Part shown: piece after piece, positions 13,706 to 45,801 of the stretch
How the letters are laid out: every line of letters starts with the position of its first letter
How positions within the stretch are numbered: position 1 is the stretch's first letter
Source: Nitriliruptoraceae bacterium
GTDB lineage: Bacteria > Actinomycetota > Nitriliruptoria > Nitriliruptorales > Nitriliruptoraceae
Length of the DNA stretch: 57,507 nucleotides
Assembly (NCBI GenBank): GCA_007133465.1
Contig: SLMP01000140.1
Coordinates: 1-57,507 of the forward strand
Direction: 5' to 3'
Position numbers and translations under genes: made by a program
The notes under the pieces: generated by a model
Told to the model about the DNA's origin: nothing
Databases searched by the model: none
Seen by the model: only the letters and a program-made list of their open reading frames with translations

Positions 13706-13975
13706 TCACAGCGAGCGCGGCTCCTCCCACAGCGCCTCGTCGAGCTCCTGGTCCCGCTTGCGCTTCAGGACGAACGCCGCGGCCGCGGCCCCGAGCCCGA
13801 GCAGCACGACGAACAGCCCCGTCTTGCCGCCCTTGTCGTCGTCCGCGGTGAGGTCCTCGACCTTGTCGACCACCTGGTCGGAGAGCTGCTTGCCCTTCTT
13901 CTCGGCCTTCTTGCGCAGCGCCTCGGCCTCGGCCTCGAGCTTGTCGATCTTCTTCGCGATCTTGGACGTTCCCAC
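13706..13975 (-). CDS. Small coiled-coil membrane protein (YtxH-like)
   Basis: 89 residues from the GTG at 13975, with AAGGGA at six bases. The first 50 residues are charged and heptad-like, rich in Lys, Glu and Ala. Then one membrane helix (about residues 53-70) is followed by KRKR and an acidic tail. No family can be assigned with confidence. The layout resembles YtxH-type or apolipoprotein-like small proteins. Positive residues after the helix suggest that the C-terminus is cytoplasmic. Confidence 0.65.
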   Translation of the reverse strand: MGTSKIAKKIDKLEAEAEALRKKAEKKGKQLSDQVVDKVEDLTADDDKGGKTGLFVVLLGLGAAAAAFVLKRKRDQELDEALWEEPRSL

Positions 13976-14206: not shown

Positions 14207-15874
14207 ATGAGCACGCGGACCTTCGACGGCGGCGGCAGCAGCCTCGCCACCACGATCGCGGCGCTCGAGGCGGCGAACATCCGGCTGGGGCCCGAGGACC
14301 ACGTCGTCCGCACGTCGCTCGACACCTTCGACGGGCGGCTCGCCGCCGCTGGCCTGCGGCTCGAACGCCGGTGCGGAGCCGCGGACGTGCTCGAGCTGCG
14401 CGGTCCCGACGGCGTCCCGGCACGGCTGACGCTGCCCGCAGCGACCCTGCCGACCACCGGCGGAAGCGACGCCTCCCCGGTCCGCACCGGCGTGCTGGAC
14501 CCGCGTGACCTCCCGCCCGGCCCGTTCCGTTCACGGCTGACCACCGTGACCCGCGAACGGGTCCTGGTCTCGTACCTCACGCTCGTCACGCGCCGGCGGG
14601 AGGGCGACCGACCCGGTCGCGAGGGCGCGCCGACCGTCGCGGTGGGCGTGGACCGCTGGGCGTCCCTCGCGGTCGGCAGGTACGCGACGCGCCGGGCGCC
14701 CGACCCGCACGCCCGCGACGCCCTGCAGGCGTGGACCGCCGAGGGGTGGGCGATCGCGGCGTGGACCCTGGAGGGGTGGACGCTCGAGGTCATCGAACTG
14801 CCCGGCCATCCGAAGCCCGCCGCCGAACTCGTGCGGCGAACGACCCGTCGTGGGCTGTCGTCCCACGAGGGCGACGCGCTCGACCTCGCCCTGCGCCGCG
14901 CCGGCGTCGACGCGGGCGGCTGGAAGGGACCGGCCCGGACCGCGTTGGACCGGCACGCCCCCGCGCTCCCCGGGTACCGCACGGTGCTGCGCGACCTGCT
15001 CGCCTCCCTCGAGGCCAACTGGCAGGGGACGATCGAGCACCTCGACAGCGAGTTCCTCCACCAGACGCGCATCGCCGTGCGCCGGACACGGTCCGTGCTC
15101 GCCGAGGGCCGCGGGGTGCTCCCGGTCGACGTCAGACGGGACCAGCGTGAGGCGTTCGCGTGGCTCGGCGCGCTCACGGGTCCGGCGCGTGACCTGGACG
15201 TCTACGTGGAGGGCTGGTCGCAGCTGACCTCGCCACTGCCGGCGGCGGCGGCGCGGGCGCTCGACCCGGTCCGTGACCACCTGGTCGCGCAGCGCGCCGC
15301 CGAGCACACCACCGTGAGCGCAGCGATGCGCTCCGAGCGCGCCGCGGCGGTGCTCACGGCGTGGCGGGCGTGGCTCGCGCTGTCGGACGACGCCGTGTCG
15401 GGCGGCCGCCGCGCGGACCACCCCCTCGGCGAGGTCGCCGCGACGCGCTTGCGCGAGGCCCAGGAGCAGGTGATCACCGACGGCCGCGCGATCGGGTCCG
15501 ACTCGCCACCCGAGGCGCTCCACGAGCTCCGCAAGGACGCGAAGCGCCTGCGCTATCTGCTCGAGTCCTTCGGGCCGCTCGGCGGGCGCAAGCGCCTGCG
15601 GGACATCCTCGGCCACCTGAAGCTGCTGCAGGACAACCTCGGCGAGTTCCAGGACACCCAGGTGCAGGCCGACCGGCTCCGCTCCTCCGCGGCCGAGACC
15701 GCCGGGGCGGGGCGGCTGGCGCCGGACGCGGACGCAGCGGTCGAACGCCTCGCCGGCATCCTCGAGGCGCGCGGGGCCGCGGCCCGCGACGACTTCGCCC
15801 GGTGCTTCGCGGACTACAGCGCGCGACGGACCCGCCGCACCGTGGCGGCGCTGATCGATGGGATGTCGCGGTGA
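14207..15874 (+). CDS. CYTH-like/CHAD domain protein, putative polyphosphate-binding
   Basis: 555 residues. The N-terminal 200 residues resemble a degenerate CYTH (triphosphate tunnel) domain: the SLDTFDGRLAAAGLRLERR segment matches the family pattern, but the ExExK motif is missing, so catalysis is unlikely. The CHAD domain follows, with conserved histidine helices at H285 (HQTRIAVRRTR) and H439 (HELRKDAKRLRY). CHAD domains bind inorganic polyphosphate through these basic helices. The stop overlaps the start of a ParA-type ATPase gene (GTGA), so the two are translationally coupled. Confidence 0.85.
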   Translation: MSTRTFDGGGSSLATTIAALEAANIRLGPEDHVVRTSLDTFDGRLAAAGLRLERRCGAADVLELRGPDGVPARLTLPAATLPTTGGSDASPVRTGVLDPRDLPPGPFRSRLTTVTRERVLVSYLTLVTRRREGDRPGREGAPTVAVGVDRWASLAVGRYATRRAPDPHARDALQAWTAEGWAIAAWTLEGWTLEVIELPGHPKPAAELVRRTTRRGLSSHEGDALDLALRRAGVDAGGWKGPARTALDRHAPALPGYRTVLRDLLASLEANWQGTIEHLDSEFLHQTRIAVRRTRSVLAEGRGVLPVDVRRDQREAFAWLGALTGPARDLDVYVEGWSQLTSPLPAAAARALDPVRDHLVAQRAAEHTTVSAAMRSERAAAVLTAWRAWLALSDDAVSGGRRADHPLGEVAATRLREAQEQVITDGRAIGSDSPPEALHELRKDAKRLRYLLESFGPLGGRKRLRDILGHLKLLQDNLGEFQDTQVQADRLRSSAAETAGAGRLAPDADAAVERLAGILEARGAAARDDFARCFADYSARRTRRTVAALIDGMSR

Positions 15875-16614
15875 AGGTGCTCGCAGTCGTCAGCATCAAG
15901 GGCGGGGTGGGCAAGACCGCGTCGGCGGTGAACCTCGCGTACGAGGCCAGCCGGACCGGCGCCCGGGTGCTCGTCTGGGACCTGGACGCGCAGGGATCCG
16001 CCACCTACCTGCTACGGGTCCGCCAGCGGCTGGCGGGTGGCGGCGCCCACGGCCTCGTCGCCGCCGGTGGCGAGCTCGGCCGCCACGTCCGCGCCACCAC
16101 GCACCCCGGGCTGCACGTGCTGCCCGGCGACCTGTCGTTGCGGTTCCTGGACCGCGAGCTCGACGCGGCCGGCAAGCCACGCCGACGGGTCGGCGCACTG
16201 CTGCGACCCCTGCGCGCGAGCTACGACCTCGCCGTCATCGACTGCCCGCCGGGCGCCTCGCTGGCCATCGAGAGCGTGCTGCGCGCCGCCGACGCCCTGC
16301 TCGTCCCGGTGGTCCCGACGACGCTCGCGATGCGCACGCTCGAGCAGTTCGAGCACATCGTGGCGACCCGCCGCCGGCCGCCCACGCTGCTCGCCCACGT
16401 CTCCATGCTCGATCGCCGCAAGACCCTGCAGCGACGTACGGTCGAGGAGCTCGCTGCCCGGCCCGGGACCCTCGCCACGGTCGTACCGAACGCGAGCGTC
16501 GTGGAGCGGATGGGCCCGGAGCGCGCCCCGGTCGCCGTGTTCGCCCCGCGGTCCGTGGCTGCGGCGGCCTACGAACGGCTGTGGCAGGAGCTCGCCGTGC
16601 AGCTGTGGCCGTGA
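15871..16614 (+). CDS. ParA/MinD-type ATPase coupled to a CHAD protein
   Basis: 247 residues. The deviant Walker A motif is KGGVGKT with the signature lysine K10 and the P-loop K15. Walker A' is DLDAQGS and Walker B is VIDCPPGAS. This is a complete ParA-superfamily ATPase, distinct from the Soj-type ParA at 43889. No ParB-type partner gene and no parS site lie nearby. The only coupled gene is the upstream CHAD protein. Such orphan ATPases often position cargo on the nucleoid; the cargo here is inferred to be polyphosphate. Confidence 0.88.
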   Translation: MKVLAVVSIKGGVGKTASAVNLAYEASRTGARVLVWDLDAQGSATYLLRVRQRLAGGGAHGLVAAGGELGRHVRATTHPGLHVLPGDLSLRFLDRELDAAGKPRRRVGALLRPLRASYDLAVIDCPPGASLAIESVLRAADALLVPVVPTTLAMRTLEQFEHIVATRRRPPTLLAHVSMLDRRKTLQRRTVEELAARPGTLATVVPNASVVERMGPERAPVAVFAPRSVAAAAYERLWQELAVQLWP

Positions 16615-16617
16615 CCC

Positions 16618-17389
16618 CGGGCCGAGGCAACGCGCCGGGTCGGCCTGGACGAGGACGTGGTGGGGCTGGCGGCGGACGTCCGCTACGACCTCGCCGGCGC
16701 CCCGGTCGTCCCCGGCCTCCACGACGCCCACCAGCACCTGAGCGCCCGCGGGGAGGAGCTCCGACGCTGCGACCTCTCGAAGGCGGCGGTGGCCGACCTC
16801 GACGAGCTCGCCGCCGCGCTGACCCGGTACGCGGCGGACCTGCCGGCCGATGCGTGGGTGCTCGGCGTCGGCTTCGACGACGCGAAGCTCGGCGGGCTGC
16901 CGACCAGGTCCGGCGCATCGCCCAGCTCGGCGTGGTCCCCGTGCCGCAGGCTCGCTTCCTCAGCGAGCTCGGTCACGCCTACCTCGCCGGTGTGGGACCG
17001 GATCGGCGCGCGCTGCTCTATCGGCAGCGCGCCTACCTCGACGCGGGCATCGAGGTGCCCGGGAGCTCGGACTGTCCGGTGGTCGCCGGGGCGCCGCTGC
17101 TCGGGATCCCGGCGCTGGTGACCCGCGAGCTGCCCGACGGGACGGTGCTGAACCCGGACGAGCGGCTGACCCCGCTGGAGGCGTTGCGGGCGTTCACGGT
17201 CGGCTCGGCCTACGCCGACCACCAGGAGCAGCGCAAGGGACGCCTGCGGCGCGGGATGCTCGCCGACCTGGTGGTGCTCGGTGACGGATCGGCGGCCGTC
17301 CCACCCGAGGCATCGGCGACGGCGAGGTGGTGGCGACCGTCGTCGGTAGCGAGGTCCTCCACGGGATGGGCCGGCTCGCGGGGCGGTGA
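16618..17389 (+). pseudogene. Decayed amidohydrolase (YtcJ-like) fragment
   Basis: Three pieces of one amidohydrolase can be read in different frames. The first, to about 16900, contains the metal-binding HDAHQHL after VVPGL and ends in LGVGFDDAKLGG. The second, from about 16900 to 17295, begins with DQVRRIAQLGVVPV and includes GSSDCPV and the C-terminal GMLADLVVLGDG. The third ends in VVGSEVLHGMGRLAGR at 17389. Compared with the usual 500-550 residues, the start and roughly 250 residues of the barrel are missing, with a frame change at the deletion and another near 17295. No function is expected. Confidence 0.8.
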
Positions 17390-17407
17390 GGGCATCGCCG
17401 GCGGGGG

Positions 17408-42833: not shown

Positions 42834-42849
42834 TGTTCCACGTGGAACA
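42834..42849. promoter_or_regulatory. parS site 1
   Basis: TGTTCCACGTGGAACA is a perfect 16-base palindrome, differing from the consensus TGTTTCACGTGAAACA at one symmetric pair. It should bind the ParB encoded at 44776. The surrounding 20-base context is shared with site 2. Confidence 0.93.
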
Positions 42850-43888: not shown

Positions 43889-44779
43889 ATGAGCCGCCGC
43901 GCCAGCGTCGTGTGCATCACCAACCAGAAGGGCGGGGTGGGCAAGACCACGACCGCGGTCTCGCTCGCCGCCGCCCTGGCCCAGCTGGGCGCGGCGACGC
44001 TCCTGGTCGACCTCGATCCCCAGGGCAATGCCACCACCGGCGTGGGGCAGCGGGTCACGGAAGGTGAGGCCAGTAGCTACGGGCTGCTCGTGGATGGACA
44101 GAGCGTGACATCCGCAGCTCGCTCGACCGAGGTCGCGAAGCTCACCATCGTGCCCTCGTCCCTGGATCTCGCGGGCGCCGAGGTGGAACTCGTCCCCGCC
44201 TTCTCCCGTGAGCAGCGGCTGCGACGGGCGCTCGATGACGCGCGCGCCGACTACGACGTGATCCTCGTCGACTGCCCGCCGTCGCTCGGCCTCCTGACGA
44301 TCAACGCCCTCGTCGCCGCCGATCAGGTGCTCGTCCCCATCCAGTGCGAGTACTACGCCCTCGAAGGACTCGGGCAGCTGCTGCGGACGGTGCAGCTCGT
44401 TGGGGACAACCTCAACCCCGACCTGATCCTCCTCGGGGTCGTGCTGACGATGTTCGATGCCCGGACCAACCTCGCACAGCAGGTCGTCGAGGAGGTCCGC
44501 GACTACTTCGGCCCGCAGGCCTTCACCACGATCATCCCGCGGACGGTGCGCCTCTCGGAAGCACCGAGCTTCGGACAGCCCATCACGGTCTTCGACCCGT
44601 CCAGCCGGGGGGCCCGGGCCTACGAGCGGCTCGCTCGTGAGGTGGCTGCGCGGCTCACGCTGCCGGTCGAGGTGCCCGAGCCGAGCCCCGTGGACCGGTT
44701 GCGGGCGCGAATCGATGCTGCGGACGACCCAAGGGACGGTCCTGCGACCCCGCGGGACGAGGAGGAGGCGCGGTCATGA
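43889..44779 (+). CDS. parA: Chromosome partitioning ATPase ParA (Soj)
   Basis: 296 residues from the ATG at 43889. The deviant Walker A is QKGGVGKTTT, with DLDPQGNAT and VDCPPSLG. It drives segregation of ParB-parS complexes over the nucleoid. The stop overlaps parB by four bases. It is a second, separate ParA-family protein from the CHAD-linked one at 15871. Confidence 0.95.
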   Translation: MSRRASVVCITNQKGGVGKTTTAVSLAAALAQLGAATLLVDLDPQGNATTGVGQRVTEGEASSYGLLVDGQSVTSAARSTEVAKLTIVPSSLDLAGAEVELVPAFSREQRLRRALDDARADYDVILVDCPPSLGLLTINALVAADQVLVPIQCEYYALEGLGQLLRTVQLVGDNLNPDLILLGVVLTMFDARTNLAQQVVEEVRDYFGPQAFTTIIPRTVRLSEAPSFGQPITVFDPSSRGARAYERLAREVAARLTLPVEVPEPSPVDRLRARIDAADDPRDGPATPRDEEEARS

Positions 44780-45801
44780 GTCGACGCAGCGGGCTCGGAC
44801 GCGGCTTGGCCGCGCTCATCCCCCCAGGCGGATCGGCACCGACCGACGCGCCGGCCCCGCCGGCGGTCGATGTCGGGCAGCAGCCGCCGGACCCGGACCC
44901 CGCGGAGCCACGCGGGACCGGTGTCCACGTCGACTCCCTCGCCGCCAGCGTCGCCGAGGTCCCGATCGATGCGCTGTCGCCCAATCCGAAGCAGCCCCGC
45001 GAGGTCTTCGACGAGGAGGAGCTCGAGGGCCTGGCCACGTCCCTCCGCGATGTCGGCATGCTGCAGCCGCTGGTCGTCCGCCCGGGCGGCGACGGCCGGT
45101 TCGAGCTGATCGCGGGGGAGCGGCGGCTGCGGGCGGCTCGGCTCGCCGGGATGGACCTGGTCCCCGTCCTGATCCGCCACACCGACGACGCCGACCTGCT
45201 CAAGGAGGCGCTCGTCGAGAACATCCACCGGGTCCAGCTCAACCCGCTGGAGGAGGCAGCCGCCTACCAGCAGCTGCTCGAGGAGTTCGGCTTCACGCAG
45301 GAGGAGCTCGCGAACCGGTTGGGCCGATCGCGCCCCGCCGTCACCAACGCGCTGCGGTTGCTGTCGCTGCCCCTGAGCGTCCAGCGTCGGGTGGCCGCGG
45401 GGGTGCTGAGCGCCGGGCACGCCAAGGCCCTGCTCGCGATCGACGACCCGGAGCTGCTCGGCCGGCTTGCCGACCGGGTCGTCAGGGAGGGACTGTCGGT
45501 GCGTGCGACCGAGGAGCTCGTCCGGGTCCGCGTCCTCGACGGTCCGGAGGACACGCGTCCCCGGCGACGACCACAGCGTGCGACCGCACCTGGCCTGGTC
45601 GAACTCCAGGACGACCTGTCCGACGCGCTGATGACCCGGGTTCGGATCTCCATGGGGGCCCGCAAGGGCAAGCTCACCATCGACTTCACGACCGTCGACG
45701 ACCTCGAACGCATCGTCGGCGTGATCGCCGAGGGCCTCGGTGCCACCTCCGGCGACGCCGGCGCGGAGCCGTCGACCCCACGCGGGTCAGGCGACCGCTG
45801 A
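44776..45801 (+). CDS. parB: Chromosome partitioning protein ParB
   Basis: 341 residues. The N-terminal segment SRRSGLGRGLAALI is typical of ParB and includes the ParA-stimulating region. PNPKQPREVFDEEELEGL and the CTP-binding GERRLRAAR motif follow, then the helix-turn-helix with TQEELANRLGRSRPAVTNALRLL. It binds the two parS sites. The last 15 coding bases overlap the end of rpiA, tail to tail. Confidence 0.96.
   Translation: MSRRSGLGRGLAALIPPGGSAPTDAPAPPAVDVGQQPPDPDPAEPRGTGVHVDSLAASVAEVPIDALSPNPKQPREVFDEEELEGLATSLRDVGMLQPLVVRPGGDGRFELIAGERRLRAARLAGMDLVPVLIRHTDDADLLKEALVENIHRVQLNPLEEAAAYQQLLEEFGFTQEELANRLGRSRPAVTNALRLLSLPLSVQRRVAAGVLSAGHAKALLAIDDPELLGRLADRVVREGLSVRATEELVRVRVLDGPEDTRPRRRPQRATAPGLVELQDDLSDALMTRVRISMGARKGKLTIDFTTVDDLERIVGVIAEGLGATSGDAGAEPSTPRGSGDR

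Follow-up and report, generated by a model that had tools for sequence, protein, structure and literature searches.

In the McdA-McdB system, the gene of a ParA-family ATPase lies beside that of its cargo-binding partner, the cargo is an organelle-like body, and neither ParB nor parS is involved. The gene pair described here resembles it in these respects, but its cargo would be polyphosphate (polyP), the phosphate store of the cell, its adaptor would be a folded protein with a triphosphate-tunnel (TTM/CYTH) and a CHAD domain (TTM-CHAD) instead of McdB, and its ATPase shares about 19% identity with the McdA of Cyanothece. The closest ATPase fold is that of the ParABS (Soj/Spo0J) systems, from which the pair differs by having neither ParB nor parS and by a ParA that falls in a separate clade from the Soj of the same cell. 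As for the placement of polyP itself, P. aeruginosa spaces its granules on the nucleoid with AlgP (PMC9239181), which we count against a positioning role for our pair. The spacing of granules on the nucleoid is what we propose here too, but AlgP is a histone-H1-like tether without an ATPase (PMC9239181, PMC13052382). According to a 2025 review, AlgP is the only polyP granule positioner identified, and whether positioning needs energy remains to be seen (PMC13052382).

Relatives of the putative adaptor have also been described. The CHAD protein of Chlorobium tepidum (CtCHAD, PDB 6QVA/6QV7/3E0S) and the phosins are of the same long CHAD type, with the same six central polyP residues. The published study treated CtCHAD as a binding domain, and a word search of that paper (PMC6537752) returned no ParA protein. 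In Acidithiobacillus, a folD-ppk-parA-CHAD cluster also places CHAD and parA beside PPK1; it was reported as gene context only, and its parA was called a plasmid/chromosome partition gene (PMC10892726, PMC6416229). The open-access literature that we searched proposes no granule function for parA-CHAD-ppk, and a recent report outside it is possible. The inorganic triphosphatase ygiF of E. coli (PDB 5A60) is a TTM-CHAD protein with the same domain order. It differs from the protein studied here, whose TTM domain lacks the ExExK motif and whose CHAD is of the long form. To our knowledge, ygiF has no ParA partner.

Two overlapping genes in a Nitriliruptoraceae genome

The window, i.e., the whole stretch of DNA that was analysed, covers 57,507 nucleotides of a contig from a Nitriliruptoraceae bacterium. 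The features used below are the following.

14207..15874, + strand: TTM-CHAD gene, 555 aa, ATG start (open reading frame, Pfam CHAD, AlphaFold2 model)
14207..14911, + strand: N-terminal TTM/CYTH-fold domain, residues 1 to about 230-235 (Foldseek; ExExK unconserved)
14930..15865, + strand: long CHAD domain, residues 242-553 (PDB match, Foldseek, residue conservation)
15871..15874, + strand: GTGA, 4-nt overlap of the CHAD stop and the ParA start (sequence)
15871..16614, + strand: ParA-type ATPase gene, 247 aa, GTG start (Pfam AAA_31, AlphaFold2, best Foldseek match Soj/ParA)
15898..15918, + strand: deviant Walker A KGGVGKT, residues 10-16, signature lysine K10 (conservation)
15979..15993, + strand: Walker A' DLDAQ, with D37 and D39 (conservation)
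43889-44779: chromosomal ParA, beside parS-like sites
44806-45801: chromosomal ParB, with ParB_N, HTH and ParB_C domains (Pfam)

The initial annotation had reported that the two genes share a GTGA, and the coordinates, reading frames and overlap all proved exact. Of the 66 linked loci, which come from many phyla, at least 41 overlap by exactly four nucleotides (36 listed, and five more in which the CHAD match extends to the start of ParA), so that of the window is not a chance event. The pair was said to lack a ParB partner and a parS site, and indeed none is present near 14-17 kb. The window has just two parS-like palindromic 16-mers (TGTTCCACGTGGAACA, two mismatches; zero expected by chance), at 42834 and 43125. 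They belong to the separate chromosomal ParA-ParB-parS set that the annotation had also claimed, which we located in the same window at 42.8-45.8 kb. The closest named relatives of the pair are from Nitriliruptoraceae (Actinomycetota), both in the ParA profile search and in the tree.

Just 3' of ParA, positions 16657-17400 contain a seemingly broken amidohydrolase-like gene, with parts in two frames and an Amidohydro_3 match that spans only 68 residues. On the other side, divergent from the CHAD gene, 13706-13975 (- strand) encodes an 89-residue protein that starts with a charged, helix-like segment and contains a hydrophobic stretch; it had no Pfam match.

The adaptor candidate combines a degenerate TTM domain with a polyP-binding type of CHAD

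The Pfam CHAD domain (PF05235) matches residues 260-492 (E 5.6e-53), and the AlphaFold2 model, made with 57 sequences in the alignment, has a mean pLDDT of 91.9. Calling the product a CHAD protein was thus right for this domain and overlooked a degenerate TTM domain at the N-terminus, which Foldseek detected on the model. As modelled, this domain has the tunnel fold of TTM/CYTH triphosphatases; it matches many TTM structures, among them thiamine triphosphatase, CyaB/class IV adenylate cyclase and the tunnel domain of yeast Vtc2p, with E-values in the 1e-4 range. Pfam CYTH matched the N-terminal half of none of the 57 TTM-CHAD members, and sequence profiles alone would therefore miss the domain. 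The catalytic ExExK of the first strand is not conserved: the window TTM domain has none, and any ExExK/R within the first 70 residues occurs in 4/57 proteins, at unrelated positions. This loss of the motif in the sequences suggests that the tunnel of TTM-CHAD is probably catalytically inactive as a triphosphatase. Stand-alone short CYTH/TTM-like proteins are encoded divergently beside several actinobacterial pairs (L075:1-579, L036:1188-1661, L077:3909-4418); that of L036, the only one tested, fell short of Pfam significance at E 0.001.

The best PDB match of the CHAD domain is the C. tepidum protein (6qv7/6qva, E 2e-40, Foldseek TM-score of 0.90 on the target). Its polyP binding is experimental, the complex with polyP is PDB 6QVA, and the central-site residues mutated by Lorenzo-Orts et al. 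were H253, R256, R260, R296, R418 and Y419 (PMC6537752). All six have conserved equivalents in the window (H285, R288, R292, R328, R449 and Y450), which are kept in 56-57 of the 57 TTM-CHAD relatives; in the window CHAD, the outer basic patch is retained only in part. The proposal that this CHAD binds polyP is thus backed by every one of the residues that bind it experimentally in C. tepidum. Other CHADs sit on polyP granules in vivo, according to the passage of PMC6537752 that cites Tumlirsch and Jendrossek 2017.

The termini of these proteins bear on how they might reach an ATPase. Among the 57 TTM-CHADs, the first 20 residues have a mean net charge of -1.0; the model of the window protein places them in a folded domain. 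At the other end, the last 20 carry a slight positive charge (mean +2.5). We looked in all 57 for the classical basic activation peptide at the N-terminus and did not find it. The known ParA/MinD partners are reported to work via an N-terminus that is disordered and positively charged (PMC10241942). Since the 57 TTM-CHADs have no such basic disordered N-terminus, their contact with ParA likely differs from that of the known partners, and we infer that either the TTM domain or the C-terminal end is a candidate for it. We found no reading frame fusing CHAD and ParA among the loci inspected.

The ATPase keeps the fold and the ATP-cycle residues of ParA

The window ATPase matches Pfam AAA_31 (E 2.1e-28). 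Its AlphaFold2 model (pLDDT 95.0) has the ParA fold, with Foldseek TM-scores of 0.84-0.91 to the best ParA/Soj structures at 21-34% sequence identity; BcsQ is also among the structural matches. The deviant Walker motif, described as complete at the outset, is so: KGGVGKT, the DxD motif (D37/D39) and Walker B D124 are all present, and K10, K15, T16, D37, D39 and D124 are invariant in 62/62 ParA relatives. The residue after D39 is A40, where the usual form of the DxD motif has a proline.

The evidence on DNA contacts is mixed. When Caulobacter ParA (CcParA) is mapped by eye, R183 occupies the position of R195 and is kept in 59/62 relatives, whereas the position of R224, also mapped by eye, is mostly D, V or A among the 62. 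Both Caulobacter arginines are conserved DNA contacts, and one of them thus lacks a counterpart here, which we counted against positioning. Other basic residues are common among these relatives (R182, K184, R188, R213, R218).

The pair recurs in distant phyla

Among 60 relatives, two families of the class have CHAD directly upstream of ParAs that share 46-72% identity with that of the window. Running a profile of the ATPase alone against GTDB species genomes gave 80 named ParA loci from eight phyla: Actinomycetota, Pseudomonadota (alpha, beta, gamma), Acidobacteriota, Chloroflexota, Dormibacterota, Calditrichota, Thermodesulfobacteriota and Bacteroidota. TTM-CHAD is directly upstream, on the same strand, in 54 of the 80, usually with a 4-nt overlap. 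The sole Bacteroidota locus of this set (L128) is outside the 54; in a sample of its phylum, TTM-CHAD was present in 43/198 genomes and ParA was next to it in 19 of the 20 loci fetched. The C. tepidum protein itself fits the pattern: the CHAD of locus L217 matches the crystallised one at 100% identity along 312 residues, and the next gene is ParA. In a separate gammaproteobacterial sample, ParA was present in 34/239 genomes, with CHAD upstream in 22 of 30 loci inspected. The initial annotation had taken confinement to close relatives as evidence against its proposal; instead, the pair is found again in phyla far from one another. The distribution is patchy, and some members of the ParA clade have no family-type CHAD, which we counted against positioning. 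In the phylum of L128, the pair is often flanked by solute-binding lipoprotein-like genes, both divergent upstream and downstream (L205, L207, L212 and other loci).

A maximum-likelihood tree of 112 rows places every TTM-CHAD-adjacent ParA in one clade of 87 rows (support 98/98, with a bootstrap not fully settled), separate from Soj, including the cell's own, and likewise from the ParAs of pnp/dapB blocks. Those members that have no adjacent CHAD are scattered inside the clade, as expected if linkage was ancestral and sometimes lost. The ParAs of L015-L020 (38-44% identical), from the same family, were considered as further members; they are encoded in a pnp/dapB block that has no CHAD, and the tree places them outside the clade. 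Loci L045-L051 also encode a ParA-like ATPase 38-44% identical (e.g., L045:9646-10353), without CHAD, in the order pnp, M16 protease, dapB, (zincin), ParA and RNase Z-like, and with a gene for a bacterial PPR-repeat protein close by. This may be one more unassigned ParA.

When the two genes are split, they tend to stay in the same genome

Among 25 genomes searched in which a clade ParA has no family CHAD upstream, 23 have CHAD elsewhere, and in 13 of these it is a full-length TTM-CHAD at another locus (490-640 bits). No consistent gene upstream of such ParAs emerged as an alternative adaptor, CHAD being mostly elsewhere in the genome. In three loci of Halomonadaceae, a shorter CHAD is convergent with ParA. 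In one actinobacterial family (L061, L063), a clade ParA overlaps by 4 nt a class V aminotransferase-like gene, not CHAD. In methanotrophs with split pairs (L081, L084, L095, L112), ParA precedes a large gene that by eye is glycogen phosphorylase-like, which concerns a different storage polymer.

Across 397 actinobacterial genomes, CHAD was found in 14 (at least 380 bits), ParA in 19 (E at most 1e-70) and both in 12, always adjacent. The figures for 239 gammaproteobacteria are 30, 34 and 23, with 21 adjacent. Co-occurrence has Fisher p-values of 1.6e-16 (actinobacteria) and 6e-18 (gammaproteobacteria), which ignore shared ancestry; the cut-offs were set once the lists had been seen, and linked pairs served to build the profiles, a choice that favours such members.

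Genes in compact genomes often overlap by a few nucleotides, and one might regard the two genes as chance neighbours or as an operon of passive hitch-hikers with no shared function. Adjacency in eight phyla, among ParAs whose identity falls to about 40%, and co-occurrence when the genes are split leave this explanation with a negligible probability: barring gross sampling error, these counts refute it.

Phosphate genes in the neighbourhood of the pair

Pfam annotation of 244 genes flanking the linked named loci revealed five PPK1, four PPK2 and 11 histidine phosphatases. Judged from typical gene counts, well under one PPK would be expected by chance among 244 genes. Read from sequence, several unlinked TTM-CHADs are beside SixA-, PstS- and PstC-like genes, and an acidobacterial one is in a block with PPK1-, PPX-, PstB- and PhoU-like genes. 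The genome of the window carries PPK1 on another contig.

This abundance of polyP and phosphate-uptake genes could also suit a ParA that acts as a nucleotide-dependent regulator or assembly factor of a polyP-handling complex (TTM-CHAD with PPK, PPX or SixA), controlling synthesis or breakdown and leaving the granules unmoved. BcsQ, which serves cellulose synthase, would be the model and is among the structural matches of ParA, and the TTM domain derives from the fold of phosphate-chain hydrolases. However, the ParA structure matches Soj/ParA best, all of its ATP-cycle residues are kept along with a basic DRRK patch, no polyP enzyme is encoded near several of the linked loci, and the absence of the TTM catalytic motif leaves no obvious enzyme to regulate. 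We therefore consider a regulatory role rather unlikely.

The direction of action might even be reversed, with polyP-loaded TTM-CHAD acting via ParA on the nucleoid or chromosome and making chromosome organisation or division responsive to phosphate status. Relatives of ParA do act on chromosomes, and the window pair is about 20 kb from dnaA (on our own reading) and parAB. Yet a complete ParA-ParB-parS set exists separately in the same window, and the linked pairs inspected are not generally beside dnaA or parB and are enriched near phosphate genes, which makes this scenario improbable.

A candidate partition system for polyP granules

We are almost certain that TTM-CHAD and ParA are partners. 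The direct basis is gene coupling, deep conservation, co-occurrence, fold and conserved polyP-binding residues. The link of this partnership to polyP is strong, and we regard it as very probable. The initial suggestion that CHAD is the polyP-binding adaptor of the ATPase gains from conservation across phyla, co-occurrence of unlinked genes, polyP genes in the neighbourhood and a crystallised member encoded beside ParA. By analogy with other ParA/MinD cargo systems, the pair should work as one of them, and positioning of polyP granules on the nucleoid is its most likely function, a reading that we hold with reasonable confidence. Given its presence in distant phyla, the pair probably spreads or segregates polyP granules, as related ATPases spread carboxysomes. 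We lean, by a little, towards the broader view of a widespread ATP-driven partition system with the polyP granule as cargo and a degenerate TTM/CHAD protein as adaptor.

In such a dedicated two-component system, TTM-CHAD would coat polyP via the CHAD pore and its basic surface and serve as cargo adaptor. The ATP-bound ParA dimer would bind this adaptor on the nucleoid, the adaptor would stimulate ATP hydrolysis, and ParA would then let go, such that granules would be spaced along the nucleoid and shared between daughter cells. We infer all four elements of this scheme, namely contact between TTM-CHAD and ParA, stimulation of the ATPase, nucleoid binding by ParA and movement of the granules.

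If true, polyP would have its first known positioning machine that depends on energy, and ParA a partner that does without the usual basic peptide at the N-terminus. The pair is a named and testable candidate polyP machine in several cultured species. A set of ParA ATPases that would otherwise be labelled chromosome partition proteins would gain a cargo, and TTM-CHAD proteins, one of which has already been crystallised with polyP, would gain a role.
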